A stretch of 64,000 nt of DNA, taken from assembly GCA_964036045.1 (NCBI GenBank), contig OZ038382.1:109948578-110012577 (forward strand), in the 5' to 3' direction. The notes under the pieces were generated by a model. The model did no database searches. It worked only from the letters and a program-made list of their open reading frames with translations, and had not been told where the DNA came from. The translations under genes were made by a program, and so were the position numbers. The stretch's first letter is position 1, and the number at the start of each line of letters is the position of its first letter. The DNA is from Eutreptiella sp. 'Long Island Sound 2002'. Taxonomy: Eukaryota; Euglenozoa; Euglenophyceae; Eutreptiales; Eutreptiaceae. Positions 700 to 64,000 of this stretch are shown here, in pieces.

Positions 700-701
700 T
701 G

Positions 702-727
702 GGGTGCGTCGCTAGAAGGTGTGCGCA
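702..727 (+). repeat. Left TIR of transposon B
   Basis: A perfect 26-bp inverted match to 14447-14472, beginning GGGTGCGTCGCTAGAAGGTG. Similarity continues with mismatches into a run of C. Confidence 0.85.
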
Positions 728-884
728 AGAACCCCCGCCTTCTAGCGCCCTTTTTGCATGATTACCCAAGCCACACCACCTTGTGTGGTTGGAAAGTGGT
801 TAGGGGCCAATGACCACATGTTTACGCCCCTTTTGGTGGCTGATTTTCACTTTTGTCCGAAACGGTCCGTTTTGCCGGATTTTC

Positions 885-1065
885 TACACCCCCCCGTTTT
901 GCTGGAAGGGGGGTTCTAGCACCCTTTCTGCACCCTTTCTGCACCCTTTGTGCGCCCTTTGTGCACCCCCCTTTCTGCGCTAGAACCCCCTTCCTGCACC
1001 CTTTCTGCACACCCTTTGTGCGCTGGAACCCCCTTTCTGCACCCTTTCTGCGGGGGGGTTTCTGC
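885..1065. repeat. GGAACCCC / CTTTCTGCRC repeat cluster, left subterminal region of B
   Basis: Many imperfect copies of GCACCCTTTCTGC, GCGCTGGAACCCC and CTAGAACCCCC. Open frames through this block only translate the repeat, so it is treated as non-coding. The same motif recurs at 2812-2990, 11735-11960 and 14168-14335, all inside element B. Confidence 0.8.
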
Positions 1066-2797
1066 GCCAAGGATTTTTGCAAGAAGGGCACCAAATGCAT
1101 CCACCGGGTTCAAATTTGGTTTCTCAAGCGTACATGCGATGCCTTTTTCTTCGGTCCTTTGTGGCCTCGCCAAGGGCAAGCCTTTGCCGGGCCGCTCGGT
1201 GTCGTAACCCCACGTCAAGGGTCTCCATGTTGAATACATGGGTGAAACGCGTGGGCGGCGGAGGCACCACCCACACATGCTGTTTTTGACAGCAAGTTTG
1301 AAAGGCTTATGCCTGTGTTCCGCAGGTATACTGCTGAACACATAAAGGTTACGATACTTTTGGAGCAACGCTCCACAATGCACCACTGTCCAGTGGACCC
1401 ATGGGGTTGACTTCCAACCCAATCGGAGCCATGCCTCACCGATTTTACGGCAGTGAGTCTTGGCCTCTTGCACCTGACCATTGGTCAATGGTGTCTTTTG
1501 CCTCCACAAGGCATATAGGCTACGCATATTGCGCAGCAACACTTCAATAAGTGTCCACAAGAGGACACCACCAAACATGGTGTTAGGAAAATGGTTCCTG
1601 AGGCCATGTACAATTCGAACATAGTACTTGGGGTACTCAAGAACAACATAGAGGTGCTGATATCAAATTGCCCTGCCTTAGTGGTCTTTTAGAAAAGCCT
1701 GTCAGCAGGAGCCACATGCTTTACATCTGCTAAAAGGGTAGACAATATATCGGCAAACTCACTAGCGATTCGCCGCACTCCAACAAAACCCACTGCTAAC
1801 GTGGTAATATTTTCTGTTAGGGGCTTCTTGAAAACATTGGGTACCCTACAACCTGCGTGTGCATAGTCTCCAATGCGAATACACACACTTCGAAGAAATG
1901 CCCCCCATTGAATTTTGTTTACCGTGCCCTCTATCGGCACCAAGCCGGTGGCATCGGGGCAGCCCCACCAACACTCCCCCCCCCCCCCCGTTCGTCACCA
2001 TCATGAGTTACCCATCCCCGGTCAGTTTACATTGAAACTTTTTGGTTTCGTTTTTGACACGGAATGTACAACTTCCCTGTAGATGGAGGATTTGGGCATT
2101 TAGGCCCGCATCCTCATCTAAAGCCTGCAGCCATGCGGCGTCATCGGGCCCATCCATGCACACCCACATCACTCATTTGTGGATGTCCCCCGCAACAGAA
2201 AAACCCCGAGGCCCAGCGGTTTACAAAAACATCCATCTTAGTGACCAATGTGTGCCACAATGACGTTGCATCGGGGCATATTAAAATCCAAATCTTCTCA
2301 GTCTCCACTTCAGGCTCCCCTAGGGTCTCGGCTATCCTCAACTGCGTAAAAAAGGGGTCTTCTAGGGTTGCTGTCGCTGTGCGCCGCCGCTCGATCATGT
2401 TGGGGCCATTGATAGCGTAGGTTGTGGTGGAGTACGGGGCTAGCCTTGTGCGCGCTTCGCCAAGATCGCGGCGCGTGCATTCGCGCGGGAGGGCCAACAT
2501 CTGCCGTATTGATAACTTCAATCTCCTATCGTTGGCCCATAGTCCGATTGCGCGCACTACACGAGGGTCCTCATCGTCGTCGTGCCCGGCGAAACGGATG
2601 TACAAGCCCCCACCACCCTCAACGAAAGCTGCCTCCGGATCCACTAAAAGTTCCCGCATGATGGTCTGTATGTGGTGCCGCCGCTCTGCTCAGGCTTTCC
2701 CCTCAATGGCCGTGTATGGCTTGAGCTGTGGGATGCTACCCACAAGTGCGGCAACCGCCTTTTCCATGGTTTCTGTGACAAACGGGAAAGGTGTGAC
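910..2797 (-). pseudogene. ORF2 of transposon B: transposase-like protein, broken
   Basis: Reading down from an acceptor-like CAG at about 2798, coding passes through 2797-2141, 1943-1689 and 1578-1070 in different frames. The first part contains CPDATSLWHTLVTK, matching the DGT motif of the A and C transposases (VDGTLRHEASYVH, FDGTKLWEASFVH). The last part has VHCGALLQKYRNLYVF followed by EHRHKPFKL, corresponding to the ExxH..LK block of the other two. In transposase terms these could be the first acidic residue and the glutamate of a DDE-type active site. An in-frame TGA near 2661 and several frame changes break the gene. The family cannot be named with certainty. Confidence 0.55.
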
Positions 2798-2811
2798 TGC
2801 TGGAACCCCTG

Positions 2812-2990
2812 CTGGAACCCCATGCTGAAACCCCTTTCTGCGCCGGAACCCCTGCTGGAACCCTTTGCTGGAACCCCTTCCAGCGCTGGAACCCCCTTCT
2901 AGCGGACCCTTCCAGCGAACCCTTCCAGCGCTCGAACCCCTTCCAGCACCCCTTCCAGCACCCCCTTCCAGCACTGCCCCCCCCCCCCTT
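2812..2990. repeat. GGAACCCC repeat cluster, probable intron of B ORF2
   Basis: Tandem-like CTGGAACCCC units with CCTTCCAGCG variants. On the minus strand the left border ends in CCAGCAG before the exon at 2797, a plausible 3' splice site. The donor side is not clear, near a run of C at about 2985. Confidence 0.6.
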
Positions 2991-3396
2991 GTTTTGCCTT
3001 TCCCTCTCATTGAGCCAAAGGTACAGGCACAGGCACAGTGCAATGTCATGGTCAACACTTTGCAATGTCGTACAATGTATTCATGTGTTCCACCCCATGG
3101 TACCGACCCCTTCAGTCCAGAATCAAACAGGCTACAATAATATATCGGAACTTTGAATGAATGCATGCATATAGGGCGCAAATCTTGGTGACGTCCCCAA
3201 GGGGTAGGCTATGTGAAGCCTCCCACTCGTGACACCACCTTAGGCACTTCGTGCACATCGCAACTACTGTCCTACGCGAGGTAACGCGCAACCTAGGGGC
3301 TAAAACGAAAAAAGGTTTCCGTTCAAGGTGGCGCAATGCTGTCAGCACAATCGCAGCGCACCCCGTACATGCACATGCACATGCAGGTGTTATCTC
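2991..3396. other. Spacer between the two genes of B
   Basis: Minus-strand open frames exist (for example about 3181-2990), but no motif or homologue within the window supports them. It may hold the 5' exon of ORF2. Confidence 0.3.
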
Positions 3397-3578
3397 AGGT
3401 CCCAACAAGTCTGCTCTCCAGGTCCCAAAAGGTCTGCTCTCCAGGTCCCAACAGGTCTGCTCTCCCGGTCCCAACAGGTCTGCTCTCCAGGTCCCAACAG
3501 GTCTGCTCTCGAGGTCCCAACCGGTCTCATCATGAGGTCCCAACAAGTGCCGACAGGTCTCCTCTCCAAGTCCCAAAA
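3397..3578. repeat. 23-bp tandem repeat, about 7-8 copies
   Basis: The unit is AGGTCCCAACAGGTCTGCTC plus TCC, with copies diverging toward the right. It is open in several frames on both strands purely because of the repeat. It lies just downstream of the end of B ORF1. Confidence 0.9.
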
Positions 3579-3595
3579 CAATTCGTCTCCAATGC

Positions 3596-4211
3596 CTACG
3601 CCTTCTTGTAATTGCCCGCCATCACCGCCAATAGCTGCTCTGCCTGTTGCTTTACTTCAGCCGTCTTGGTGTTGCTCTCCACCGGCTGCTTCTTCATGCT
3701 CTCATTCTCCAGCTCCAACTCCCTGACCCGTTTCCGCTCGTTGTCCAACTGGGCCTCGGCGCTCGCCCGTCCCACGTGCTCCGTCTCAAGCTGCTTGGTC
3801 AGCCGGCCACTCAGTGTCTCTGCCTTGCTCTTGGAGGCCTCGGACATCGCCTTTGCCACTGCCCAAGGAGAAAACTACAATCTCTCAGGGTCACACTCAT
3901 CTGCTGCGTCAGGGAGTCCTTGCACCGCTGTACCACCTTGTCAGCCATAGCCCGAGCGTCGACCATTTGCTAGGACTGCTCGGATTGCTGGGACTGCGAC
4001 TGCGATGACTGAGATGCCCGGGTTGTCTTGTCCTTGTCCTTGTCCTTGTCCTTGTCCTTGTCCTTGTCCTTGCGCTGGCCTTTGGCCTTGCCTTTCTCCT
4101 TCGGCTCGTCCTTGGCTTTGTCCTTGCCTTTGTCTTTGTCTTTGTCCTTCGGCTGCTCCTTGTCCTCGGCATCATCGTCGTCTCCTTCCACCTCAATCGC
4201 AGCGCCCCTTG
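3596..4211 (-). pseudogene. B ORF1, 3' part: acidic/lysine-rich tail and coiled coil
   Basis: This is the continuation of the dioxygenase gene at 11187-14133, split by transposon A. Removing A and one CA dinucleotide joins the frames exactly (VGGRGHT on one side, RGAAIEVEGDDDD on the other). It reads an acidic stretch, then about ten KD dipeptides encoded by a CTTGTC hexamer repeat (4028-4075), then a glutamine-rich part with an in-frame TAG near 3970. After a frame change or small intron it ends in a coiled coil with heptad-like charge pattern (3859-3596, ending in GNYKKA). A similar coiled coil ends ORF1 of A and C. Confidence 0.6.
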
Positions 4212-4600
4212 TGTACCCTTCGTGAACGGCCGTTAAGTGGCCGTTTGAATAATTGCGTGAATTTCACGTGAATTTACCCAAATTTTGAGGTTTTTGGGGG
4301 AAAATGCCATATTCTTGGTTCATTCCGAGGGCTTTGAGGGGCCAAAATTCCTCCCCCAGCTTTGTTACGCATCATCCTATGAAAGTCCCGCACCAAAAGC
4401 ATCCATCATGTCCGAACCGTGCCCAAAACGAGAGATGCCGAAACCCGGCAATCCTGTAGCCGATTCACAGCCGTGAATTCACGTGAATTCGTACGAAATT
4501 CGCACGAATTTCGCACCAATTTCGTACGAATTTCACGTGAATTCACGTGATTTTACACAAATGTTACCGGTGTGCACCCCCTGATTTGTCCTCACACCCC
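4212..4600. repeat. Left terminal and subterminal region of A
   Basis: The TIR is followed by a short stem (GGCCGTTAAGTGGCC) and, at about 4470-4560, by dense ACGTGAATT and TTCGTACGAA palindromes. The whole 390 bp is nearly identical to 32830-33220, the left end of D, which defines it as a shared terminus. Confidence 0.85.
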
Positions 4601-4661
4601 TAGTAGGCCCCCCAGCATGCATCGGTCACAGGCAACAATGGTCTGGGTTTGTAAGGTGATC

Positions 4662-6500
4662 TCATGTCCGTCTCTTGCAGCACCGGAACTGCCGCTGCAG
4701 AGTCTGAAGGTGCTGCATGTCGGTTAGAAGCCGTCTTCTTGTGCGGCTTGCATACGTTTGTACACTTATGGGCCCTTGCCCATTTTGTGCCCTTTTGGTC
4801 ACATCCCACCCATGCAACCAAAGGCTATCGTCAATGGTGTGGTTGTCCACAACCACTTGCACCCCTAGTCTCCCCCGGAGGAGGCTTAGGGCCCCGCTGT
4901 TGCGCAACATGCGCTTCAGCCTCTGGTGACTTCCCTCCATGGCAAAGCAGGAGAACTTTGACAAGATTCTCCACTTCTTTGCAAAATAATACATGTGGTC
5001 GATCCAAAGATGCGTCCACAGAAGTTGGCCCCACTGGAGCTCATTGTGGGCAGCGCCCATGGCTATGCTATGGTTCCGGAGCCGCCCCAAGTCGGCCCCG
5101 GAGAACCATGCGGAACGCCACGCGTATACACACATGCCTGCAAAATTCTCCCACCACGTTTTGGACGCCGACTCCCAACTTTTTCCCCCTACTTGATGCT
5201 GCCTCACACTAGGCTGCTGTAGGCAAGCATCTATTATTTTCTCCCAACCCCTATTCCGCATGAAATGGATGGCAGCAGCACACTCCATCCTCACCTTCCC
5301 CTTGCTGTTTGCCTTGTCATTATTTAATGAGGCACGGGTGCAAGTTCGTGCAGCAAGCCGTGCCTCATCTAGAACCGGTTGCAGCATGGTGCGTGCCAGA
5401 TTGGCCGGTGCCTTCCCTGTCAATTGTACAACTAGGTCCCGTGTCCCGTTGATTGCACACAACGGGACACAAAGGACCCCATGGAGGCCATAATCAGGCA
5501 CTCGCCTATCACTCGTAATGGTCCTATATATAGCATTTATGGCAACGGCCGGTTCCCAGTTGCCGTCTATCGCACTTGCTGTGCCAAAGTTAGCAAGGCA
5601 CAGAGCACGGTTACGCATGCAGACCCAACACACAGTGGCACCAGGGGATTCTGCCTTCCAGTTTTGGCCGCCCGCCATCAGCACCTGTGCTTTACCATCT
5701 GCACACAGAAGAAAAAGGGACTGTCTATTTTCCCCTCCCGTATCCTTAAAACTTACGGTTGCGGCCTTGCGCAACTCATCATCAAAATCAATTTCTTGGG
5801 AGGCCGCGTAGAGGGTCTCCCACTTTTCACTGCCCCCTAGTAGCCACCAACTAGATAGTTGGTTGGGGCTAGCGGTGCCACCAAGCGTGCAATGGACGTA
5901 CGAGGCCTCATGCCTCAATGTACCGTCCACCGCAATAGGCAACCAATGCAGCCGTCGGTCCCCGGGCTGCATGATGTCCAAGGGTGGGGGTGGTCGACAC
6001 TTGAATAGGTGGCCGATGCGGTTAGGTAGGAAGCAGGCCGCACCATTGATGGCCGTGTCGTCTCCCGTATAGGCGGTGAACGCCCGGGACTCCGGCAACG
6101 CTAGCTGCCGAAGCATGCCGTACACCTGGTCCCATACCACACCGTACGTCATGCTCCCCACTAGGTACCGGGACTCCGTCCTAGAGAGGTGCAATGACCG
6201 GATCCTCCAGACGGCCATAATCAACCTGTCCTCCATGTTGGGCTCAGGCTGGACGGTGGCTACAACTCTTCTTTCGGGGGTAAGCACTATTTGCCCCGTG
6301 TCGGGCAGGTACTTGACGGTGTAGGGTGCTGCAAGCTCCTTGGTAACAACTTGCTGGAGCTCTTGTAGGCGCCTCCGTTGTGTACGACCCGTTAGCAAAT
6401 GGAATGGCTCCTTGGGCCGCGGCATGGTGTGAGATACAAGACCTGTGGAATGGGGGAGGCATTCATCGCAAGGTTTGTACCATCCCCCTCCCGCAGACAA
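4662..6500 (-). CDS. Transposase-like protein of transposon A (ORF2)
   Basis: A 612-residue open frame, the longest intact gene of its family here. Near residues 190-200 it has AVDGTLRHEASYVH, aligned with FDGTKLWEASFVH in C and PDATSLWHT in B. It then has a cysteine pair in CWVCMRNRA, a PDYGLHG motif, and near the end LWIDHMYYFAKKW plus MEGSHQRLKR, aligned with LWIDHLFGWARRW and GEGRHKALK in C. The spacing of conserved D, D and E/H suggests an RNase-H-fold DDE transposase, but I cannot assign a named superfamily. It should act on the TGTACCC ends. The likely start is the methionine before PRPKEPF, about 25 residues inside. The frame ends at TGA. Confidence 0.65.
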   Translation of the reverse strand: MSAGGGWYKPCDECLPHSTGLVSHTMPRPKEPFHLLTGRTQRRRLQELQQVVTKELAAPYTVKYLPDTGQIVLTPERRVVATVQPEPNMEDRLIMAVWRIRSLHLSRTESRYLVGSMTYGVVWDQVYGMLRQLALPESRAFTAYTGDDTAINGAACFLPNRIGHLFKCRPPPPLDIMQPGDRRLHWLPIAVDGTLRHEASYVHCTLGGTASPNQLSSWWLLGGSEKWETLYAASQEIDFDDELRKAATVSFKDTGGENRQSLFLLCADGKAQVLMAGGQNWKAESPGATVCWVCMRNRALCLANFGTASAIDGNWEPAVAINAIYRTITSDRRVPDYGLHGVLCVPLCAINGTRDLVVQLTGKAPANLARTMLQPVLDEARLAARTCTRASLNNDKANSKGKVRMECAAAIHFMRNRGWEKIIDACLQQPSVRQHQVGGKSWESASKTWWENFAGMCVYAWRSAWFSGADLGRLRNHSIAMGAAHNELQWGQLLWTHLWIDHMYYFAKKWRILSKFSCFAMEGSHQRLKRMLRNSGALSLLRGRLGVQVVVDNHTIDDSLWLHGWDVTKRAQNGQGPISVQTYASRTRRRLLTDMQHLQTLQRQFRCCKRRT

Positions 6501-6539
6501 CTAAATTTTGTGGGTCTCTAGCGTGGTTCGCATGCAATT

Positions 6540-6720
6540 TGAAGAAATTCACATAAATTCGCAAGAAACTCGTACGAATTTCGTGCGAAGTTCACGTGAA
6601 TACATTGGTGTGAATATTCTGGAAATGTGAAATTCGCGAGAAATTCGTCCAAATCTCGTACGAATTTCGTGCGAATTTCGTGCGAATTTCACGTGACTGT
6701 CACAGAATTTCTGTCGAAGC
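6540..6720. repeat. TTCGTACGAA palindrome cluster between the two genes of A
   Basis: Repeated TCGTACGAATTTCG and ACGTGAA units just upstream of the transposase gene, where its promoter should lie. The same units occur near both ends of A and in the ORF1 intron. Confidence 0.8.
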
Positions 6721-7021
6721 GTCATCCTGTTGCCCTCGTTGACCCTCACAAAGCAAGCAAAGGATGGTGTTCATTGGTTACCACACACCCAGTCCAATGG
6801 TTGTCATTCCGTGTGACACTCAGTCAGCAGTGCAACAGGTCGCGGGGCATAGCATACCCCGAATAAAATACAAACAGTGCTGCAGAAAATATCGCAAACA
6901 GGTCAGGGGGGCATAGCATAGTGCTGCGGAAAATTTCGCAAAGTGGGGGGGGAGTGCCCCACATGTCGGTCAAACTGCCCATGACTGGGGAGGGGGGGGG
7001 GCAGGATAACATTTGTGGAGG
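6721..7021. other. Intergenic spacer of transposon A
   Basis: No supported exon. It holds a short direct repeat (GCATAGCATA / GTGCTGCRGAAAATWTCGCAAA at 6845-6945) and a G-rich run before the end of ORF1. Confidence 0.4.
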
Positions 7022-10000
7022 TTAGAAGGGACAGGTGGTTCCGAGGTTAAAGGGTGAGCTACACCCCCCCCCTTGGAGCAGAGCTCCGGCTAGCGGAGCC
7101 CTGGGAGCTCTGCTGCCCCACCGCCTCCACAAAGGAGGGGTCCATGGCCGCCGACGTGAGGCGGTGGGGGGGGTACTGCCGGCGCACTTCCTCCAGTGCG
7201 GCACTCACCCTGAGGGCGTCGGGGGCCACGTTGTCCACATCGGCCTGCTGGCCACTGCCCATCATGGCCATCCGCAGGCCGGTGGACACTGCCGACATCT
7301 GGCCGGCGCACGCCTCGGCCTGGGCATGCCGCGCCTGTGCGCCGGCCAGGAGGTACCGGACACCGGCGGCACTGCCCCCCCCCCCCCCTGTCACCCGGGG
7401 GGGCCTAAGCACCCGAAGGCCTCTCCACTGCCTGTGCTGCCTGTGCCGCTGGCTTTGCCTTGCGCGACGTCGCCAGGTCGCGCTCCAGAGTTTTCACCTT
7501 GGCGGCCAACCGGTCACGCTCCTTGGTGACGTCCGCCAACCGCGACTCGACGTCCCGCCTGTCCTCGTTGGCCCTGGACAGACGGGCCTCGAGGTCGCGG
7601 TCGGCGGCCTCCGCGCTGATCGCGCGTGCCTCCCACGCCCCCGCCCGCTGCTGCTACACCCACTCGTGCACCGCCCCCCTCTGCCCCCGCCCCGCCACCG
7701 GCTCCGCCTGCTCCGCCCGCTCCGCCCGCACCGCCCGCTCCGCCGGGGTGGCCGTACGCGGGGCTTTGGGGGGGGGGGCTCCGTGTCCCCTTGGGGGCGC
7801 CCTTTCCGCTTGCGGGTGGGGGGTTCGTCCGGCTCCTCGACGTCAATGACGGCAGCCACCCCCATCTTCCGCTGCCTCCCCACATGGACGCGCATGGCAA
7901 GCCATGCCACGTCTGCCCACTCCGGCCTCCGTTGGTCCCAACCCGTGAGCACATTCAGCCCAAAGACCCCAGCCGTGGTCACCGTCCCCTCCTCCCCAAT
8001 CCGCGACACCCCGGTCTGCACCCGCCAGTGCCCATTCACAAGCCTGTAGGCAAACATGCCCACAAGCTCCTACCCCGCGGGCAGGTTGGCCCCCCCCCTG
8101 ACCACAATGGGGCAGGGGAAGGAGATGCGGAAGGTGCCCTGCACCCCCCAGGACTCCAAGACCATGTCCCACTTGGCAGTAAGATGCCGCTGCCGCCCAT
8201 CGGGCCCGGGCGGCACCTGCTGAGTTCAGGCCGGATCGGGCTGCGTGGCGGCCAGGGTGACCCGGTCCAGGGGGGGTCGATGTGGGCCTCGCCCAAGTCG
8301 ACGCGGGACGGCATGGGCACCACCACCTCGCGCGCCACATGCCCCGTGGCGGTGCTGGCCTCGCTGCCGGTGCCTCCCGAACGTCCAGAGCGCCGCGATC
8401 CCTCACTGCGCACACTGCCGGCCTCGCTTGGCGGCCGTCCACCACCGGTGCCTGCGGGCTGGTCGCCACCGGTGCCTCCGGGCGGCTCGGCGTGCTCCTC
8501 GGGCAATCGGGGCCGGGGATTGTACTTGCGCTTGGCGTGGTGCCGAATATCCGGCGACCACGCGGTGAACGGGACCTGCAGATGTGGGGAAGTGTGCAAG
8601 GCACAAATTGAGAGAGGAGGAGTGGAGACGAGGCAATGCAAGAACAAAAGGAACAAATTGGACGAAATTCACAGAAATCCGTACGAAATTCGTACGAAAT
8701 CCGTACGAATTTCGTACGAATTTCGTGCAAATTTCACATTTCCAGATTATTCACACAAATTTATTCACGTGCAATTCGTACGAAATTCGTACGAATTTCA
8801 TACGAATTTCGTACGAATTTCACGTGAATTTCGTCCAATTTGCCAAAAAACAAAGGAAACACACAAGCAAGCACACCTTGCACTCACCTGGGCATGTGAT
8901 GCTCCATGCCCCGGTCTTCGCGCACTTGGGCGACCGCCACGCTGGGGCTGTGTTCGCCAGATGCCACAGCGTGGTCGGCCGCTCATGGGGGGGGCAATGC
9001 CGGTCATGGCGAAGTGGATCTCCGACTCCGCATCGGCATTGTCCACCTTGCACACCTCTAGTTGGTGCACGCTGCCCACGAAGAACAGCATGCACTGCTC
9101 GCCGACCTCGATGACCGAGAGGTCGGAGGCCGGGGCCGACCGGGAGAGGAAGGTGGGGTGGAAGGGGCAGGTGGGGGGGCCTGCCGGGACCGACTCGGGG
9201 GGTTGTCGAAGAGGGCCTGGGCAGCATCCCCCTCCCACAACCGTACCCTCCCAACCACCCCCTTCCCCACACACAACACCTGGTCCACGCTGGGGAAGTC
9301 CCAGCTGGACAAATCCCCCGCAACCTCCAGGGCCTCCTTGGGGGGGGTGAGGTCCGGGTGTGTGGTGTTGGGCTGGTGGTGTTTGTGTCGGGGGTCGGGG
9401 GTCCACAAGTGAAAAACAGCCCCCTGCAGCCCATCCTTGGAGTCGGGGAGGGCAGGCAACCCATGGTGGCGGCTGGTGGCCACCATCAGCAGCATGTCCC
9501 CCCGCTGCAGCTCAACGGTGTCCAAGCGCGCCTCCGCAGCCTCCCCCAGGGCCGTCCCCGCCTGCACCGCCACCTTGTAGTCCTCTGACAAGCAGAGGAA
9601 GCTACTCAGGTGGCACCCCGAGATGTCCCTGCTGTTGGGGGGGAGCACCTCGGGGTGGGTGGCGACATTGGTGTGGGGGAGCTGCGGCCCACTCCCCACA
9701 CTTGCCACGATGACGCTGCCCGGCGTCATTGGGTGGAGGTCCCCAACCCCAGGGGACACTTTCGGTGAGGTGGGGGTGGAAATTCTTGAAGAGAGGCCCC
9801 CCCACCCCCGACCCCAGGTTGCTCTTGCTTTGCCAACGCCGGGGGAGCTCAGGATCCTTGGCCTGATCTTCACTCCGCGCGGCGTTGAAAAGGAGCTCAA
9901 AAATTTTTGCGACGACTTTTTCGTCACCGCTGCCCCACGCCTTCATCACCTTGTTCCACCCCACCTCACAATCCCGTGCTTCCGCAAGCCCCCGAAGCAC

Positions 10001-10808
10001 AACGTAGCCGTTCCCATCAACAAAGTTGAGGGGCGGTTGGGAGGGGCCAACCCTGTCGGGGGCGGGGTCGGGGTTGCCCATCACCCCATGAGGGGGGTCG
10101 GGAAGGGATTTGGTGCGGAGGGGGGGTTCACTTGAAATGAAGGGGGGGGGGCATTGAGGCACCACGGTACCATTGCAAAGAAATTGTGCTGTAGAAGGTG
10201 GGGTGGGTGACGTCGGGGATGTGCACCTTGCGGGGGATGGTGGGATCGAAAGGGGCGATGCCCGAATCATCCCACCACCGGGGGTTGGCAAGGTGCCAAG
10301 AGAAGGGGAAAAAAGAATGGTCTGCCGGTGCACCTGCAGCAAGATCCTGTAGGCACACCATGTCGCAGTGGGGGGGGGGGGTATGGACGAGGTTAGTGGT
10401 GGGGTACACCTGGACGTGGGCGTCCTTAGGCTTCCCCGCACGGTTAGTGCGCATGGAATTGAGGAGCTGGTCAACACTGGAAGGGAGAGGGGTTGGATGC
10501 AGAAATTTAAGGGAGGGGAGTGGGCGGCGCAGTTCCCTCCACAGGGTTGTGGCCCAGGCCCTCCCCCCAAGGTAGGAGTTGCGGGTGGGGCTGCGCAGGT
10601 CGATGTGGATGACCTCGGGAAAGAGGTCGAGGGATGCTGCGCAGCCCACAACATCATCCACCCCCAGTGCCCCCGACTGGTACGTCGCCTCCTCCAATTG
10701 ATGGTGGGCGACGGGGAGGGCTTGGTAATGGGCGACGGTGTCGGCTGCGGGGTCGGGGCGAGAGGCCAGGCTGGCGAGCTGGGACATAGTCTGCTGGGAC
10801 ATTGTCAA
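7022..10808 (-). pseudogene. ORF1 of transposon A: 2OG-Fe(II) dioxygenase-like protein with coiled-coil tail
   Basis: The start is the methionine at 10808. The N-terminal part (10808-10128) ends in HIPDVTHPTFYST, a motif shared with HIPDITHPTLHST in C'. Coding continues through shifted frames to 8888. The putative double-stranded beta-helix has PHTN at about 9670 (an HxD site with N for D), then SRHHGLP at about 9465 (second histidine); the arginine seen in the B and C copies (TRII, GRAL) is replaced by glycine. After the intron at 8576-8887 it reads VPFTAWSPDIRHHAKRK, a proline/glycine-rich stretch, a VLESWGV/FPCPIVV/GMFAYRL block that resembles B, and a coiled coil at 7640-7440. Frame changes at about 10.0, 9.75, 9.19 and 8.1 kb fall mostly in G/C runs. 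This copy may be inactive. Confidence 0.55.
8576..8887 (-). other. Spliceosomal intron of A ORF1 carrying TTCGTACGAA palindromes
   Basis: On the minus strand the donor is CCCAG|GTGAGTGC and the acceptor CTGCAG|GTCCC; length 312 bp. It contains a dense run of TTCGTACGAA units (8660-8830). C ORF1 has an intron at the matching place with the same CAG|GTCCC acceptor (62209-62542), and B has one at 11734-12016. The intron sequences differ, each carrying its own family palindrome. Confidence 0.75.
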
Positions 10809-10859
10809 AAGAGAATGCGAAGAGAGTTCGAGAGCTGTGAGAAAGCGAAACAGTGGAAA

Positions 10860-14340: not shown

Positions 14341-14446
14341 TTTTGGGAATTCGGCGGACACTTATAGGAACTCCTACAGTGACTCTTAGGCATTGTAAAC
14401 GCGTGCACATCGTGGTTCTAGTGGTACCCAAAAGGGGGGGGGTTTC

Positions 14447-50663: not shown

Positions 50664-50690
50664 GTTGCGGCGGAAGAGGGTGTATTTCCC

Positions 50691-53875: not shown

Positions 53876-53987
53876 GGGGGTGGGGCCGCGGCCACGTCCT
53901 GCCCGCTTCTTGCCAGTTTACCATGGCAGCGGGGGGCGTACTTGGTCTTGAGGTCCTTGGTGTGCACTCGTTCCACTTAACGAACTG

Positions 53988-54914
53988 GTGGTGGTTGTTG
54001 AGGCAGGTGCTGCAGCACTCAGTGTACTCGCCCCTGAGGGAGCTGAGTCCCACAAGCACCTCTTCCCAGAGTCCCGCCTCCAGGACGACTGGACCGACGA
54101 TTACGCCAAGTCTGAGGCCTTTGCGGCCGAGTATAGGGCTGTGACCGACCCTGACGACGGGCAGAAGTGGCCAAAGGGGCTGACCGAGGAAGATGGCAAG
54201 CTCTACCGGAATGGTAAGCTGCTAGTGGCGGAGTCCCGGGTGCTCGAGCCTTGTGAAGCTTGGCACCACCACATGCTGCACACAGGGGTCAAGAAGCAAG
54301 CTCTTGACATGCAGCGTCGGTTCGAGATCGACCATATCGTTCTGTACACCGCCATCAAGAAGGTCAGGAACGGTTGCTCGGTCTGCCAGGCCTGCAATCC
54401 CCATAACCGGAACGTCAAGGGGGAAGCCCAATGGACCCCGGTTCCTGACCAGCCCATGGAGAGCGTGGCCATGGACGTCTTCTCCATGCCCGAAGTGCAC
54501 ATTGGCAAGGAGACCTTTGACTGTGTGGTTCTCTGTGTGGATCGCCACAGTGGCTACGTAGTAGCCGTTCCGGCACGCAAAAAGGGGTTGCTTGCCAAGG
54601 AAGTGGCAGTCATGATGATTCGTCATTGGCTGACTGTCTTTGACATCCCCCGCACCATTTGCAGTGACCGAGGGCCCCAGTTTACTGGTGGCTGGTTCAA
54701 GGCTATGTATTCCCTCATGGGGATACGTCATGCCAAGAGCGTCGCCTATCTCAGCCGGTCTAACGGCCGTGCTGAAGTGGCTGGACGGCAGCTGTTCGAG
54801 AAGCTGCGCAAGATTCACATCACCAATCCACGGCGGAACTGGCTTGAGGAGATGTGGCCTGCTCTGAAGGCCCATCATAACACCCCCACACCGGGTGGTT
54901 TGTCCCCTCACTAG
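53988..54914 (+). pseudogene. Integrase of the LTR element, plus strand, ends at a premature TAG
   Basis: H2C2 zinc finger: HHHMLHTG at about 93-100 and CSVCQAC at 130-136. Catalytic core DDE: AMDVFSM (D163), CSDRGPQFTGG (D227) and SNGRAEVAGR (E263). The frame stops at TAG after GGLSPH (54912), but the same frame continues with ILFGRD and into the next ORF, so the stop is a single-codon break. It begins just right of the inverted gag-RT block; there is no ATG, and upstream residues come from the breakpoint. Confidence 0.8.
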
Positions 54915-54953
54915 ATTCTGTTCGGCAGGGACCCCCTGGGTAGGGGACTTCCC

Positions 54954-55586
54954 TTGTCGGGTGATGGCATGGCTATGGATGCCAAGGAATTCTTCGCGCG
55001 GCAAGAGCAAACGGCGCGGGACATCCGCCAGCAGCCCGAGAAGGAGCATGCTGAGCGTCAGAAGTCCGCCCCGAGCTCGACGGCGCACAAGTTCAGGGTG
55101 GGGGACCCGGTGTGGGTGATCAGACCCCGCCCTATGGGCACCCACCGCACCAAGACCTGGTTCACACCCGGCGAGGTGGTCCGCAGGATTGGTGAGGACA
55201 CCTACCGCATCAAGGTGGGTCACGGACAGTTCCGGGAGCGCCACGAGAGTCAGCTCCGTGTGCGGGAACCCGACCTCCGTGGCCAGCATGTGTCCCTGGA
55301 CTATGCCGCACATGAGGCTGATTCGGACGACGATTATGCTGAGCAGGACGACTACACCGTCGAGAAGATCCTGGCTCAGCGTCCGAAAGCCTCGGCACCT
55401 GGAGGTCTGAAGTTCAAGGTTCGTTGGCGAGGCTATCGGCCGTCCCACGACACCTGGGAACCCGTCTCCTCGTTTGTGCCGCGGGTGAACACTCCCTTCA
55501 TGGAGTACATCCGCAAGCACAAGACCAAGATCCATGTCTCGGACTTGGCAGCACTCACCCGGGCGATTGCAGCCAGGGGTGCCTGA
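54954..55586 (+). CDS. Integrase C-terminal domain and chromodomain
   Basis: Same frame as the integrase, 13 codons after its stop. FRVGDPVWVIRPRP and WFTPGEVVRRIGEDTYRIKV form the GPY/F-like, SH3-type integrase tail. YTVEKILAQRP and LKFKVRWRGYRPSHDTWEP (55350-55470) are a chromodomain, which in chromoviruses steers integration to modified histones. It ends at TGA 55586. Confidence 0.8.
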   Translation: MSGDGMAMDAKEFFARQEQTARDIRQQPEKEHAERQKSAPSSTAHKFRVGDPVWVIRPRPMGTHRTKTWFTPGEVVRRIGEDTYRIKVGHGQFRERHESQLRVREPDLRGQHVSLDYAAHEADSDDDYAEQDDYTVEKILAQRPKASAPGGLKFKVRWRGYRPSHDTWEPVSSFVPRVNTPFMEYIRKHKTKIHVSDLAALTRAIAARGA

Positions 55587-56898
55587 TCAGCGCCCTGAGC
55601 CCTCCCCTGATGCGTTTTGAGGCGCTTGTGAGGCCGACGGATCGTCCCTTACTTGCTTGCTCTCTTCCATCTTTCGGTGACCTGCCATCAGAGTGGCCAT
55701 ATACCCCCCCTGCTATATCCAGAGGAGGATGGCCCCTCTCTTCTTCTATTTGTCACTCCCCCCCCTGCTGAATCCTTGGGAAACCAGGTAGGGCGACTGA
55801 CCTTCATATTTCTGAGCTCTTGGGACCTTGAAGCCCATACGACGTTGCGCAACAGATGCCGCTGTCATCGGCATTGCGATTTTTGAGTGTGTGGTCTGGT
55901 TCCATGGCACTTGCGGAATCCAGACCAGTCGACGTGTGTCTCGAGACTATATGTGGCCTGGACTCAGGCGTTTTCCTGTCCACCCTCCTGCATTTGCCTT
56001 GTCCTGACCGTGGCGTGGTTTGGCGCTCTGTCCAGAGTGTGTTTAAACGCCTATTTACCCGTTTGTTGCTTATTTTTCTACCTCCCAGGATATGTGCATT
56101 TGTATGTTACGATTGTCAGCCCATCACCGACAGATGGACTGTTTTCTCCCCCCCGAGGGGATGCGAATCGAAATACAGAGGCGCCCTGAGTCGCCGTTTA
56201 CATGCTTTTACTTACGGTCCAGCCTGGACCGGTACCTAAGTACATATTCTTCTGTTTGAGTGCTTCTGATACCGTGTGCCCTATTCGCTGTGATGTGGAG
56301 ATCCTGATGGCGCCAGGCGGGAAGCCCAGTTGCCTGACTACACTCCCAGCGGTCCGCCACTGTCAGTCCCAGTGTGAGCCTACCGACTCGCAGACGCACT
56401 TGCAGTCGGATGGCGGCCTCCGGTGCTCCTGACCTCGGTCAGTCTGCCTGGGAAACTGGTGGTTTGAGGAGTCGACGCCTCCGCCCAAACTGCATGAGGA
56501 CTCCCTCATGTATGGCCTTCGTGGTAATAGGGCGAGGGAAAAGACGGCCTGGATGCCCGATCCCTTAAGGAGGAGCTCGTTCGGCTGTACCACTCTGGAC
56601 TCGCGTCGTATGGATATGGACATGGTGGTGACCGTGGCAGCCGGCACCCGGTGCGCCTGGTATGGGTTAACGGGTCCTTTGGATGCCGAACAATCGCCGC
56701 CAGGACCCGGGACTTGATACTTGATACTATACTTGCAGTTACAAGACCTTACAGCACTATACCTGTCATACTGTGGAGTTTGGAGCCTAACCGGCGAATC
56801 AACCTGAAGTGAGGATGTGACACCCCCCCTTCAGGGAATGGTCCTGGGTACCCGCTGCCAGGCTTGGGGGTTATCGAGCCCCCCCCGGGGCTTCCTCT
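55587..56898 (+). other. 3' untranslated region of the LTR element
   Basis: 1.3 kb without a supported gene. Near the right end it has CTGGGTACCCGCT at about 56846, an inverted match (one extra base) to the first bases of the LTR (AGCGGTACCCAG), and the hairpin GAGCCCCCCCCGGGGCTT. Confidence 0.55.
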
Positions 56899-56909
56899 AA
56901 GGAGGGGGG
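56899..56909 (+). promoter_or_regulatory. Polypurine tract
   Basis: AAGGAGGGGGG directly before the TG of the right LTR, the expected plus-strand primer for reverse transcription. It fixes the element's orientation as plus. Confidence 0.75.
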
Positions 56910-59900
56910 TGAAGCGGTACCCAGAACCCCATGGCTAGGGCAGGGCATACAACCGGTCTCCGGTCCACTAACCCCATGCACGGAAGGAAAGACCGGTCTC
57001 CGGTCCACTAACCCCATGTACGGAAGGCGCCCGTTGACGCCCGGTGGGAGCCCGGCGGGAGCATGTTCCGTGCCGTAAAGCTTCGCATCGGCAACCGATG
57101 CACCGCCAGCGGAGATTTATATATCAGAATATCAGGAATCAACAGGGTTTTATTTTCATATTGTTTCCGTCAATTTTTACGCTTCCGTTCTGTTATTCAC
57201 TGTTTTGACAGCTGGCGGTTAGCTCGCGACTTTAGCGTAACCGCCAGTTTAACTGTTATTAATGGAAATTTTAACGCAATCCGTGACGAAGGCTCTAAAG
57301 TCTTCAGGAATTGCGTTGATGCATCCGCAATTTTCACATCTTACACTCGCAACCTTAATCCGAATTTTCCAGGATGTCGAAATCGGATTTTCGACTTCGA
57401 CATCCCCGCACTTGATTTGACCTCTTTCGAGTGGACCTACGTGCTTCCCTATGCACGAATCAACTTTCCTTTTATCTTGCCCTCCATTTGTCTTAGAGAT
57501 ATGGGCAAAACAAAGTTGATTCGTGAAGCCACTTGTGAGGGTCATATCTCGTGCTGCTTGCGAGGAATGACAATAAGGAAACGTGGGATGTATTCACAAT
57601 ACTCCGGACGTAATTTAGGAAGCTTTATATGCCTTGCGTCTCCACACGTGCGCGCTAGTGTAATGGATCATGGTCAAGAGGGTAGAGTTTGCGTTATAAC
57701 TCTTTGGCCATGATATTGCGTGCGTTAAGATAACTTTCGAGTGTAGCGCGCGAGTGCTGGTGTTGCATAGGAACTCTCCTTGAGTTCCTATGAGCGATTG
57801 ACACAAATTTATGCCCCTGGAGGGGCATGACATATCGTGGGGGGAGCTACCTTTTTGGGCAATATGTGGTATGTGCCATGTGTTGTGTTGCGTGCCCATT
57901 TGGCGGGTCCATCGCTCCAAGCCAAACCCGCCAACGGACCTCATATTGCGCAAGCCCCTTCTCCATACTCCCCACGATCAATTGCAAGCCTAACCTTCCT
58001 GGAGGGAAGCTTGTGTGGCGATCCCAAAGCGATGCGTTGGGAGCAAGGTGTGTGTTTTGCAATTTTCCATATTTTCATGTGCCCACTTGGGAAGTAGCGC
58101 TCGTGACCTTTCAAGGCGCCTGAAGTGGAGCACATATGTGAAATCGAAGGTCATTGGTGTCAAGTCATTGTGTTTAGAAGGATTAGTTGATTGCACGATC
58201 CAAGCCGAAGATATTATAATATAATTGTGCGCCTTTCAAGGCACTTTTGTGTGTCTTTGTGCCAATTTTGCCGTTTTTGGCCCGTCATGATGTCAAGTGG
58301 CGACCGTGTATCTCAACGTTGCGCTCAATTGACATCATGACCCAAGTGTGTGATGAGGGTACATACTTCGGTGCCCAACATATCTTGGACCCGGCGAATA
58401 ACTCCTCTTGGGCTTGGCATACCGTGGCCGCCATGTTGGCGATTTGGGACTATTCCAAATCATGGGCTCACTTGGCGACCCTGCCATTCCCAATACCGGA
58501 GGAGTTGGGCGACGCCCAAAAGATATATTGGACACATATGACTTGATACCAATCCTATGGCACCCTCCGGTCCAAGTCAGGCATGTGCCTCATTTGCCCC
58601 AACCATAAGTGTGCGTATTTTTGGCCATTTTGAGCAATTTTCCACTTTTGCTGCCCACCGTGCCCCATTTTCTAACCCTCGTGCACGCCGGACGCATTGA
58701 CCAATGGACCATATATGACATGGGTGATATGGATATTGGTCCCCATGGTTCACACACCACGTGGGCGAATCGGAGCAACCTTCGTTAAGGTGCTAGGCCA
58801 AAATGAGTGTGGGCAATTTTGCCATTTTGGCATTTGTGGACCCAATTGGGATCGTCACCACGCCAAGTGGCATGGGGATCTTTGAGAACCAAGTGCATGG
58901 GAGTCTCTGTTGGACTCCCGGTGGATCGCGTATGGAATGGCGGATTGGATCTCCAAGCCGGCGTGGAGATATACTATTGGGAGCACCCCGAATTTTGGCT
59001 CATTTCGAGCAGCCAAAATGACCCCATTTTGGGACCCCAACTTCACCCCTCCGTGTGGTCAATTGGCGGCCGCATTTCTCTGTGCCCACAAGGAGCTTGG
59101 ACCTAATTCCAAGTTGTACACTCAAATATAAGTCCTAGGTCCTGCCTCCTAACCTGTGAGCCATTGGCCCTGCCTTGGCCGGGCGAGCCACGTGTGGGAA
59201 TGACGCCAATTTTGGTGATTTTGGCATCATGACCCCACTTGACGAATCCGTGTTGCCCTGATGCCGGGACCTCAGAGGGAACCAGGTTGGGTGAGGGCTC
59301 CAAGGAATTCGTACTCGAAGGGCATAGGGTCAGTTGCCTCGTCCCTACCTCTGGCGGGTCCGCACGAGGGGTCAATTTTGGAGATTTTGGAGCTAATATC
59401 AGTTTGGGCTGAAACAGCCCATTTTCAGATACCAACTCCTGGGCGATAATGGCGGGGCCATATCTCTCGCTCAGAGAGGAGTTGAGACCTGCCGTTAAGG
59501 GAGCATAGGGAGCTACTGTCGATCGGCCTTGGAGCCCCTTGGTTTCCAGGAACTCGCCTGTGGCTGGGCGGAACACCCCCCCTATTGGCAGGGTTTCAGG
59601 GTCCGGACTGAGCAGGGCATGGGTTGTATTTGAGCCCCCGCCCCCACCAGCCACTGAGAGGGTCGGACCTGGGATTGGGATACGAGTTACGACTGAGTGT
59701 CTATTGTCCTGTAATGCCCTTACCCCAGTCCAGTCTTAACCCCATGTGTACATATCCTGATGTGTTGCTGTACATACTTTCGTTCCCTTGTTGCAGAGTG
59801 GCAAGGATCCTGAAACGCTTTGTCACATGACATGAGCGCATTGATGCCCCTGTGAGCGTAGTGCTTTGCCTGCCTGCTCACTTGCGCGTGTCCACCGCAG

Positions 59901-59935
59901 CGTCCCGTGGCCAGGCCCCCCACGGGAACGCGCCA
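56910..59935 (+). repeat. 3' LTR
   Basis: 3026 bp, direct copy of 42836-45860, TGAAGC...GCGCCA. About 20-25 substitutions were seen by eye in the first 1.7 kb. Confidence 0.9.
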
Positions 59936-60600
59936 CCTCGGTGAGGTCCGCGTTCAGGTCATAGACCTCGGCCAATTGGGAAACGATGGCCTTCTTCTCG
60001 GATCCGCGCAGCAAGATCCAAGAGCCCAAGGGCATTTGACTCCCCAGGTCGCCAACGGCAAAATGCACGAAGGAGGCCTCCCAGAGCTTTGTCCCGTCGA
60101 AGGAGATGCCCACCCACACGTTGTCCGTCAGGAATGTGGGGCCGTCACGGTGCCACATCACCTGTGCCAGAAAACAGGCCGTGTGTACCGGGTCACCGTG
60201 TACGGTCGCCGGGAAACGCTTTGGTGCAGGGTGAAAATACCTGCAGTTTCTGCCACAGATTGCATGCGGCCCCAAAAATGTCATTTTCCTCGTCCGTCTG
60301 AAAATGGACCTCCGTGACACGGGGGGCGGACAATGCCTTTCGCACCTGCATCAGGGTTCCCCTTGGGCACTTCCATTGGCTGTGTGCCCGGCTGTACTGC
60401 AGTTTGCGGAAGCTGTCGCCATTTTTGCGGCTCCCCCACAGAATGGCCGCGGCCAACAGCTCCAAATCGGGGGTGGGGGGTTAGCTCTCCCCGCAAACGA
60501 GGTGGATGCGGCGGCGGCCGGGCTCGACGTGTACTTCCCAATGTGGCCCCAAAATTTCTGCCGAGACTTCGCGAAGGCGTGCCAGCCGCGCGCGCCTGTC
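59936..60600 (-). pseudogene. Transposase-like ORF2 of transposon C, 5' part
   Basis: From about 60600 the reading RRARLARLREVSAEI, then WGSRKNGDSFRKLQYSRAH and EENDIFGAACNLWQKL, aligns with the N-terminal third of the A transposase. After a frame change at about 60225 it continues with VWVGISFDGTKLWEASFVH (putative first catalytic D) and ILLRGSEKKAIVSQL, and stops at the LTR retrotransposon. The second half is at 41653-42835. Confidence 0.6.
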
Positions 60601-60734: not shown

Positions 60735-60945
60735 ACACAGTTGGCACGCGGTTGGCGCGCGCCAAATCGGGGTTTGGCGCGCGCCAACTCGTCAGTTGGC
60801 GCGCGCCAAGTGCTGAGTTGGCGCGCGCCAAGTGGTAAGTTGGCACGCCAACTTCTCATTTGGCGCGCGCCAACTCCTCTGTTGGCGCACGCCAAATCAG
60901 GATTTGGCGCGCCAACTTATCACTTGGCGCGCGCCAAAACCATGC
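60735..60945. repeat. TTGGCGCGCGCCAA palindromes between the two genes of C
   Basis: About nine units in 210 bp, each 14 bp or a one-base variant, separated by short varied spacers. Open frames through it read (W)RAPxxxLARA and are repeat artefacts. Confidence 0.9.
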
Positions 60946-62208
60946 CCAGCCAGTGCCTGCACATTTCTTCGACCGCTTGCTGCCCTGACTCTGACTCCCC
61001 TCGCTCTCTTCCGCCTGCCTGCGCTTGGGGTAAACCAGGTGCGCAACCAGGTGCTTGTCAAGCAGGCCCTTCAGCTCCGTGAGGGTGGCCTCGTTGACCC
61101 CCATGTTGATGGCCACATGGCGTTGGGCGCTGAGTGCAGAGTGCAACTCCACCGCCGCCGCCTGCAGGTCCAGCACATGGTCGGGGTCGGCACTACCCTC
61201 TCCCCCCCCCCCACTGCACGCACCTGCGCCGTGGCGGTCACCTGCTGCTGCAACTCCCTCCTCTGCTTTTCCCACCCCTTCTCCCGCCGCTCCCACAAGG
61301 CGCGCTCACCGGTGAGCGCGTCCTGTGCCGTCTTGCGGGCGGCCTCCGCCGCCCTCAGCTGCTCGCGCAGCAGCTTGTTCTCCGCCTCCAGGCGGAGAAT
61401 CTCCGCCTTCTCCAGTGCCCCCCCCCCCCCCGTCTCCCACTGCCCGCGCTGCCTGTGCTGGCTGCCGGGGGGTGGTCGTGGGGCGAGGGCGCCTGGAGCC
61501 CCTAGCCTGCTGCTCCGGCGGCCCTTGCTCTGCAGGGATGGGTCCCCAGACGCGTCAGATGCGGCCGTGCCCCCCTTCTCCCCCTTCGGCCCATTCCCCA
61601 CGAGCTGCTTCTGGAAGCGGAGCAGAAACGCCTGCGTTGCCTCCTTCAAGTGGGGGGCGGGGGCAATGGCCCGCACGTCGCTCCACTCACACTGCTTCCA
61701 ATTCTGCAGCTGTCCCAGAACATCAATGCTGCAGAGGAGGAGCCGGTTGTGCGTGGAGGGGGGGCGCACGTGCACGAAGGGCACAACGGAGACAACCCAT
61801 GGTTGCAACCCCCCCTTCCCCTGCACCACTGCCAGGAACGGGCACACCACCACCCTATTGTGTCCCGAACCCCGCCTATTCACCTGCGCTTGGAACAGGC
61901 GGCTGATGATCGTCCCCCCCCCCATCGACGACGTCCACCTCCGTCGCCTCGGCAGACGTCACCTTCAGAAATTTGTCCGGGCTGTGGAAGGCGTCCCCGA
62001 AGTCCGCCGGTTCCGGGACCTCCGGAACTTCCCAATCCACCTCCACGTCCACATCCACCTCCACCCCCTCCTGCTGCTCCTGCCGCTGCTCCTGCCGCTG
62101 CTCCTGCCGCTGCTCCTGCGGCTGCCCCTCCACCTCCTCCGCCCCGGCCGGCACGGGCACCGGACGCGGGTCCACTTCCAATTGAAAATTGGCGTAGTGG
62201 ACGGGGAC
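60946..62208 (-). pseudogene. ORF1 of transposon C, 3' part: variable region and coiled coil
   Basis: Starts after the intron at VPVHYANFQLEV, has QEQRQEQRQEQ repeats and an acidic valine/aspartate-rich stretch (61.9-62.15 kb), then LCSIDVLGQLQNWKQCEW, and a long coiled coil (about 61.45-61.25 kb: RLEAENKLLREQLRAAE). After a frame change at a C run (about 61205) it ends with LHSALSAQRHVAIN and a basic KRRQAEESEG/SKRSKKC tail. Coiled-coil endings are shared with ORF1 of A and B. Confidence 0.5.
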
Positions 62209-62542
62209 CTGCGAATGCGCAACAACACAAGCATAAAACAATGCACACAACGACACCACTGCAACAGCCAAGACAACGCGAAAACCAGCAACAGAACAAC
62301 GTTTCGGATAAAGCCCAACGAATTAAATTCAGGCGCCAAAACGGCACTTGGCGCGCGCCAACTAGCTATTTGGCGCGCCAAAACTCGCCTTGGCGCGCGC
62401 CAAAACTGGACTTGGCGCACGCCAATCGACCACTTGGCGCGCCAACCGGTCACTTGGCGCGCGCCAAGATGGAAGTTGGCGCGCGCCAACTGCGAAGTTG
62501 GCGCGCCAATCTGCTATTTGGCGCGCGGCAAATTCGTGTCAC
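62209..62542 (-). other. Intron of C ORF1 carrying TTGGCGCGCGCCAA palindromes
   Basis: Minus-strand donor TCACAG|GTGACACG, acceptor TTCGCAG|GTCCCCG; 334 bp. Holds ten TTGGCGCGCC-type units (62340-62530). Same place and same acceptor style as the intron of A ORF1 at 8576-8887. Confidence 0.75.
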
Positions 62543-64000
62543 CTGTGACAACATCGCATGCATGCAAGGCACCGCGCGGGCACACCTTCTCGCTGCAGGA
62601 GCAGATGGTGCGACGGGCCTTGTCCATGCGGACGAGGTCCAACATCTCGGCGTCCTGGGAGCTCAGGGGCGGGGTGAAGTGGGCCATGGCCATCCAGGCC
62701 ATGCGGCCGGCCCCTGGCTCCCGCACGAACGCGGCGCCCAGTGCGGCGAACGAGTACACCACCGTGCCGGCCGTGCAGCGCATGCGGCAGAAGTCGGTGG
62801 CCTCGGGGGGGGAAGCCACCACCTGTGGATGTGCGGAGTGGGGCAGCCATCCGCTCTGGCCGCCTCGGCGGTGGGCCCCACGTGCGCGTGGTCGGTGGGG
62901 GTCAGAAACAGACCTGCAGACACCCCCTCTTGCAAGAGGAGGACGTCCCCCATGTAGGGCACCAGGGGGTCCAACGGCTGCTCAGCTTGCGACACGAAGC
63001 AGACTGGCTGGGGGTTCGCGTCGGGAGTGAGGAAGTCCTCCTCTGCCGGGGGGGGGGGGGGGGGGGCGGCCTCTCCTCCGCTTCCGCCGGCGCCTCTGCA
63101 TCCGCCGGCGCCTCCGCATCCGCTGGCGCCGCCGGCATCTCCTCCTCCTCCTCTGCCGCACTCTGTGGGGGGGAGTCGGCATCCGCATCCACAGGCGCCT
63201 CCGGCATGTCCACCTGGTCGAGGGGGCTGTAGTTCACACTGGCCTCTGTGCCCAGAGGAGACGCGACTGCAGCACCCTCGGCCAGAAGCTCGGAGGGCAT
63301 CACCGGAACACTGTTCATCAGCTCAGTTACACTCTCAGGCTCTACGGTCAGCATGCGCCACCGGTAGCCGACGGGTGCAAACGGGATGAACAGTGCCCGG
63401 CCAGGCCCTCCCGCACCACGGTGGATCACCGTCCCGCGGAGGAGCGTCACGCTGCGAAGCGGTTGGATAACAATATCCCACCGATGCGCAGCGTGATAGC
63501 CCCCCTGCGTGCCCGGGCACACCTGGAGGGACTTGGACGGAGGGGAGGCGGTGAGGGGGATGAACACAACCATGCACTGCACTGACTGTTTCACAGACAG
63601 TGCAAAATTGCGGTGGGGGATCTGGAAACCCTTCCAGGGTTCTGCCTCCCACCGCTTGATGATCTTGGGGCACAAGGCCTCAAGTCCCTGCAGCGGCGGA
63701 AGGGAGAAACCCAGCAGGCCCAGAACAGCCTGCCAGGGGTCGTCCGTGAGCCAGTGGAGGACGCTGGAGACCGTCGTCGGATAGCGCCCCCCACCTTCCC
63801 CGGGGGCCTGGAGGTCCACCTCCTCCAGCATCGACGGGTTGAGTTCCACCGTGGCGAGTTCCGCCAGTCTGGCCCACAAATCCTCGGGGATGATGCGGTC
63901 ATACTGGCGGTAGCCCGCCGCAGCAAAACCCTCCTCCGTGACGATGGGGGGGTTGGTGATGTCGTGGTTGGCGACGGGGCAGGAGTTGTGGAAGGAGGGG
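62543..64000 (-). pseudogene. ORF1 of transposon C, 5' part: 2OG-Fe(II) dioxygenase-like
   Basis: Frame 63879-62902 and beyond the right edge. IPHRNFALSVKQ (about 63610) sits where HxD is expected but has N for D. CMVVFIPLT and VCPGTQGG follow, then LLRGTVIHRGAGGPGRAL (about 63420) with the second histidine and the arginine. A proline/alanine/glutamate-rich linker follows (63.2-63.05 kb, repeats of ADAEAPADAEAP). A frame change at a G run (63050) leads to a Cys-containing segment near 62.6-62.7 kb. It resembles A and B ORF1 in order of parts. Confidence 0.5.

Follow-up and report, generated by a model that had tools for sequence, protein, structure and literature searches.

A stretch of 64,000 nucleotides from the genome of the euglenophyte Eutreptiella sp. 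'Long Island Sound 2002' (contig OZ038382.1 of assembly GCA_964036045.1, positions 109,948,578 to 110,012,577 of the forward strand; referred to as the window, on whose scale positions are given) contains members of three families of multi-copy DNA transposons, designated A, B, and C. They are mobile repeated elements with inverted ends, ∼6.8–7.0 kb each when nested insertions are subtracted, and every family carries two linked, diverged genes, open reading frame 1 (ORF1) followed by ORF2, on the minus strand. On balance, we lean toward the view that A, B, and C form one anciently diverged lineage of transposons of the CACTA-Mirage-Chapaev(-Transib) group, CMC(T), whose ORF1 may encode an oxygenase countering a silencing mark. 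The plan of ORF1 and then ORF2 on the minus strand, shared by three diverged, high-copy families, had been proposed from the letters of the window (the original prediction) and was borne out.

The borders of A (4212–11186, minus strand; 6975 bp), a complete element nested in B, are exact to the single base: its terminal inverted repeat (TIR) is TGTACCCTTCGTGAAC.., its termini read TGTACCC..GGGTACA, and it is flanked by a 2-bp target site duplication (TSD), TG. Altogether, 22 A-type insertions were examined (two in the window, 20 in loci fetched from the genome), and each of the 12 in which both exact end patterns matched (both in the window, 10 of those fetched) had a 2-bp TSD; the other 10 fetched loci were not scorable, one or both end patterns being absent. 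A non-autonomous relative of A at 32830–37341 (strand not assigned), with ends 90% and 94% identical to those of A, is flanked by TA. B (702–14472, minus strand) is an old, damaged copy with a 26-bp TIR, GGGTGCGTCGCTAGAAGGTGTGCGCA, and ends uncertain by 1–2 bases; after removal of the nested A, it measures 6794 bp. C occupies the window from 41190 to 64000 (minus strand; TIR TGTAACTACGAAG..), and its right end lies at 65151 (position 1229 of the flanking locus L029), 1.15 kb past the window edge; by arithmetic, it is ∼6.9 kb long minus its nested insertion, and the agreement in length among A, B, and C is notable. Both C-type insertions of which both ends were seen also have 2-bp TSDs, GT in the case of C and AT in that of a short non-autonomous relative (17045–18638, minus strand), which keeps the N-terminal part of ORF1 (17481–18245). 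Elements A and C share TGT..ACA ends. Beyond C, another C-type left end begins at 65218. The original prediction had thus drawn A correctly to the base, had placed the start of C at its actual position, and had given B a span (700–14474) that agrees with its inverted repeats. The copies in the window are damaged in part: ORF1 of B contains a stop, ORF2 of B lies in multiple frames, and ORF2 of C is split. Copies of B are the more diverged and the more damaged ones.

All three families are abundant in the 2.28 Gb of genome searched; with scoring confined to the best candidates, the copy counts given here are minimum values. ORF2 of A yielded at least 72 scored matches (8470 first-look candidates) and that of C at least 98 (13329 candidates); for ORF1, at least 178 matches were obtained for C from 112 scored candidates (of 52380), and at least 134 for B from 122 (of 3714). 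Many copies of A ORF2 are open across ∼600 codons; most of the listed copies were scored with a TGA, which, judging by frame lengths, apparently lies upstream of the likely start. Linkage of the two genes was determined for A in 20 of the 72 listed loci, which ranked toward the top and had been picked by ORF2 alone. ORF1 was present in 17, complete in both parts in 15 of them and with 59% and 93% of the N-terminal part in the other two; it was not found in three loci (L017, L019, and L024) within the ∼10-kb fetched stretch. For C, 46 of 98 ORF2 places had a listed ORF1 on their own strand no more than 30 kb upstream, 32 of these within 5 kb, whereas the control arrangements gave 2/98 (same strand, downstream), 2/98 (opposite strand, upstream), and 0/98 (opposite strand, downstream). 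As the C ORF1 list (112 places) was a best-scoring subset, 46/98 is a floor. Among four fetched copies of B, two (L030 and L031) contain parts of ORF1 and ORF2 in order, and two (L032 and L033) match B around ORF1 only, within the fetched stretch; in L032, an A-type element adjoins the B ORF1 region. The count of paired loci therefore argues for linkage, and the statement that the enzyme gene is part of every full element stood for 17 of the 20 A loci and not for the three in which it was not found. Matches listed in protein searches (40; 62; the best 120 of 559) all apparently come from the same or a near-identical genome, and a scan of viral contigs with the A terminus and an ORF2 alignment detected no relatives, records close to this genome having possibly been excluded.

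ORF2 is represented in A by an open frame of 612 codons (4662–6500, minus strand) with the motifs DGT, ADGK, CxxC, HxxxxH, and a Glu at +20 (motif positions were taken from protein P0002, 92% identical to the window copy). The ORF2 of C is found in two pieces on the minus strand, an N-terminal part (59823–60350) with the first Asp (FDGTKLWEAS) and a C-terminal part (41653–42933) with the second Asp, CxxC, HxxxxH, and the Glu at +20; the broken frames of B (1279–2776, minus strand) retain HxxxxH and the Glu at +20 (HWTVVH..E). A and C align with 33% identity over ∼290 residues (2e-36). B ORF2 aligns in four pieces (25–38%) to a B-like frame of 511 codons just past C (66935–68467; L029:3013–4545), and this frame aligns in turn with A ORF2 (5e-9, 21% identity, ∼300 residues). 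By these alignments, the ORF2s of A, B, and C are homologous, B by way of the related frame outside the window. In A, in C, and in B copies L030 and L031, the Glu is exactly 20 residues past the second His of HxxxxH; in A and C, CxxC is 23 residues past the second Asp. The Cys pair is CWVC in A, CWLC in C, and CWIC in the B-like frame, that is, C(2)C; the B-like frame also contains HWTCAH and ends before the Glu.

This arrangement recalls RAG1, where H937, H942, and E962 have the same spacing; TSDs in the CMC(T) group are 2–4 bp long. According to one study (Kojima 2025, PMC12730594), the stretch from the second D to the last E contains C(2)C and H(3-4)H in EnSpm, Mirage, Chapaev, and Transib alike, both are conserved in RAG1, and TSDs are 2–3 bp in EnSpm and Plavaka. 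C(2)C (except in one B copy, see below), H(3-4)H, and short TSDs (A and C) were all found here, a likeness to CACTA/EnSpm, Mirage, Chapaev, Transib, and RAG1 in TSD length and in the HxxxxH and Cys pair that precede the last E and follow the second D, which points to ORF2 being a divergent CMC-type (CACTA-Mirage-Chapaev-Transib/RAG1) transposase with predicted DDE chemistry. The CMC(T) motif, the 2-bp TSD, and the TGT..ACA ends of A and C together lead away from the KDZ transposons and toward a divergent CMC-type lineage. Kyakuja, Dileera, and Zisupton, the KDZ elements with TET/JBP, share with A, B, and C the idea of a transposase combined with a dioxygenase, but have TSDs of 8 bp (Zisupton and Dileera) or 7 bp (Kyakuja) (PMC12730594), and no KDZ match was obtained here in Pfam. 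Membership in KDZ was rejected on the 2-bp TSD and the CMC motifs of ORF2, in agreement with the original prediction, which had seen no obvious match of the transposase to that group.

Several results weigh against the assignment to CMC(T). B has a TSD (AT) only when its terminus is chosen to fit, and none with the terminus GGGTGCG; B copy L031 reads CWWGC, that is, C(3)C (CxxxC), and departs from C(2)C. A Pfam hmmscan of ORF2, Plavaka and EnSpm profiles included, gave no transposase family match, and the matches below the cut-off were to other families (DUF4315, 0.0012; KaiB, 0.11; COX6B, 0.18). The AlphaFold model (27 sequences) had a pLDDT (predicted local distance difference test) of 43 and established neither an RNase H core nor any other fold; it is confident mainly in a helical stretch (approximately residues 340–491) from the Cys pair to just past HxxxxH. 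Foldseek with this low-confidence model returned nothing at E ≤ 0.001, and the 50 listed of 294 hits included no transposase. PDB profile searches of A1, A2, and A5 returned two chance interleukin-16 matches for A2 only. As the model is of low confidence and Foldseek returned nothing at that threshold, membership in CMC(T) is drawn from motifs, termini, and the length of the TSD, with no contribution from the fold, and ORF2, known from its sequence motifs, differs from the rest of the group in lacking detectable Pfam or PDB-profile similarity.

ORF1 of A comprises an N-terminal part (10128–10976, minus strand), with a HIPD[VI]THPT segment in common with C, and a dioxygenase-like part (9058–9942, minus strand); the majority sequence of its copies is a single frame of 658 codons starting with MSQQ. 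ORF1 of B (12011–13834, minus strand) has HRD..H..R and an in-frame TAG (12998–13000), which is absent in all three fetched copies covering the site. The dioxygenase-like part of C ORF1 (62902–63999, minus strand) belongs to a frame that runs on to 64548 outside the window. The window copies read HTN in A and HRN in C, but HTD is found in 11 of 13 aligned A rows, and among the pattern-scorable rows of 62 C proteins, HxD was present in 20/28, the distal His in 31/33, and the Arg in 24/28. HxN, which the original prediction had admitted as a motif, was therefore rejected as a family feature and attributed to decay of the window copies, HxD being present in most of the scored relatives of A and C. 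The order HxD..H..R was read in B copies L030, L032, and L033 and in C proteins P0043 and P0048; P0073, also of C, has HRD and ends before the distal residues. Thus, HxD, distal His, and Arg, the residues by which TET/JBP enzymes are judged, occur in B and C, and A has the first two. Between families, ORF1s of A and C align around HIPD[IV]THPT (hhalign 1.8e-6, 42 columns), and those of C and B align weakly, in register, across VIHRG..R (hhalign E 0.062). The synonymous share in A ORF1 was 110/226 in the N-terminal part and 64/167 in the dioxygenase-like part, where ∼0.28 is expected, which is a lean and not a test because the rows are related. Coiled-coil-like segments, judged by eye, are separate frames downstream of the ORF1 frame (in C at 61071–61958, minus strand), so that the predicted ending of ORF1 in a coiled coil did not hold.

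The recurrence of HxD..H..R across diverged families indicates that ORF1 is most likely a 2-oxoglutarate/Fe(II) (2OG-Fe(II))-type oxygenase. Other observations speak against it. A has HxD and His but no clear 2OG-binding Arg at the usual place, and the tail of A ORF1 appears unconstrained (synonymous share 41/159). No Pfam match above the cut-off, no PHROG better than E 0.04, and no PDB profile match was obtained for ORF1, and the AlphaFold model of P0042 (pLDDT 39) established neither a double-stranded beta-helix nor any other fold. With neither library, PDB, or profile support nor a successful model, the oxidase reading is drawn at the level of motifs. The conserved HxD/H were fair ground for the original prediction to suspect a 2OG-Fe(II) dioxygenase, and the linked plan and the separation from KDZ also stood; its proposals of a TET/JBP-like enzyme and of a dioxygenase fold were not supported. 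As for TET/JBP, the ORF1 sequences scanned had no PF12851 match, a genome-wide PF12851 search recovered none of the copies, and comparison of the B and C ORF1s by hhalign with an alignment of a frame from a virus-like contig (L034) and three phage proteins found nothing, which is weak evidence, the alignments being very shallow. ORF1 is like TET/JBP and the TET-like enzymes of giant viruses and phages in the order HxD..H..R, and unlike them in this lack of detectable relationship, as judged for B and C.

In plant CACTA elements, TnpA is an accessory DNA-binding or assembly protein, and two-gene plans are usual in these elements. ORF1 could by that model be a non-enzymatic accessory protein of the same CMC-type transposons, its HxD, His, and Arg being structural or coincidental, and the empty oxygenase searches, the failed fold model, and the coiled-coil-like segments nearby would fit; we consider this rather unlikely, because the three motifs recur in order among families that can hardly be aligned, C and B are weakly in register at VIHRG..R, and the residues persist among decaying copies. 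It is quite unlikely that ORF1 is a 2OG oxygenase with a target other than DNA bases, for instance one resembling PhyH or AlkB whose substrate is protein or RNA. The C sequence 'PHRD...VVFIPL...VCPGTQGG...LLRGTVIHRG...GRALFI' is, by eye, nearer to the PhyH layout than to TET/JBP, and the negative TET/JBP profile and hhalign tests agree with such a view, but neither PhyH nor AlkB was matched in Pfam, and what a transposon would gain from the enzyme is not obvious. That a genuine TET/JBP dioxygenase is coupled here to a transposon related to KDZ is highly improbable: the two-gene idea is that of the fungal TET-carrying transposons (PMC12730594), but the sole genome-wide PF12851 match lies on a virus-like contig and in no copy of an element, ORF2 has CMC motifs, and a TSD of 2 bp, against 7–8 bp, largely refutes KDZ.

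The closest precedent for a CMC(T) lineage with an oxygenase gene is fungal. Fungal elements of the EnSpm, ESTA, and Plavaka types can contain TET/JBP genes, and all TET-carrying Plavaka belong to PlavakaB (CATCA ends), none to PlavakaA (PMC12730594). A, B, and C resemble the TET-carrying elements in combining a CMCT transposase with a second gene proposed to encode a DNA-base dioxygenase, and A and C resemble PlavakaA in their 2-bp TSD and TGT..ACA ends; they differ from the TET-carrying elements in that the host is a euglenophyte, ORF2 has no Pfam transposase match, and ORF1 is not recognizably TET/JBP. Given this precedent, the kind of transposon is already known. The new transposon lineage of the original prediction is divergent, but the signature in its ORF2 is already familiar from CMC(T), and fungal CMCT elements with TET/JBP have been described (PMC12730594). 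New are the host group, the unrecognizable ORF1, and the divergence of ORF2.

In the favored reading, ORF2 would bind the TIRs, cut, and insert the element with a 2-bp stagger, and ORF1, traveling with ORF2, would oxidize a silencing mark on the DNA or chromatin of the element, which could thereby escape repression. The likeness to TET/JBP-carrying fungal transposons makes an anti-silencing role of ORF1 probable. For Euglena gracilis, heavy cytosine methylation is reported and base J is named as a euglenoid base in PMC12455990. In the A copies, CpG decay is mild (transitions 1.7%, vs 0.8–2.0% in other C contexts), too little to show methylation of these elements, and a strong methylation footprint was rejected on this ground. 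A farther-reaching version appears unlikely, namely, that ORF1 represents an unrecognized transposon-borne family of DNA-base oxygenases, not recognizably derived from TET/JBP, which a CMC-type ancestor in euglenophytes acquired once and which was kept through the deep divergence of at least three families; in a host that has 5mC as well as base J, it could act as a counter-silencing enzyme or even supply oxidized thymine for base J. If ORF1 does erase a mark, the pairing of a transposase with such an oxygenase extends beyond fungi to Euglenozoa, the group with base J and JBP, and the question whether DNA-base oxidation became linked to transposons on more than one occasion is opened to testing. 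Borders and a class are also supplied for families that may belong to the many repeats still without a class in a genome of the Euglena type; for E. gracilis, the published assembly leaves 32.73% of repeat elements unclassified (PMC11252322).

The insertion nested in ORF2 of C is a long terminal repeat (LTR) retrotransposon of ∼17 kb (42836–59932, strand not assigned), whose LTRs (∼42836–45857 and 56910–59932) are 96.9% identical. Between them (46102–55586), a reverse-transcriptase frame (46102–48264) and the frames upstream of it are on the minus strand, and integrase- and chromodomain-like frames (53952–55586) run the other way, on the plus strand, which, as judged by eye, is an unusual arrangement. 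A minus-strand frame of 753 codons (28588–30849) has reverse-transcriptase-like motifs and no Pfam match; a similar frame in L031 adjoins a GIY-YIG-like frame and looks Penelope-like by eye. At 37393–37974, a transposase fragment matches DDE_Tnp_1_7 (PF13843, 9.7e-15), which we take to be of the PiggyBac type. The sole PF12851 match of the genome (L034; G000:C2034:19243–19665) is on an AT-rich, giant-virus-like contig, in a frame that joins TET/JBP- and glycosyltransferase-like parts and has phage relatives; giant endogenous viral elements are reported for E. gracilis (PMC12455990), and this AT-rich contig fits them. Elsewhere in the genome, chlorophyll a/b-binding (light-harvesting complex, LHC) domains form tandem repeats (L038 and L040) in frames of up to 6122 codons. 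Green-type LHC polyproteins are a euglenophyte trait, and, in the PDB, the two LHC domains tested matched best to a 620-residue 'LHCI-2' chain (entry 9vfj).

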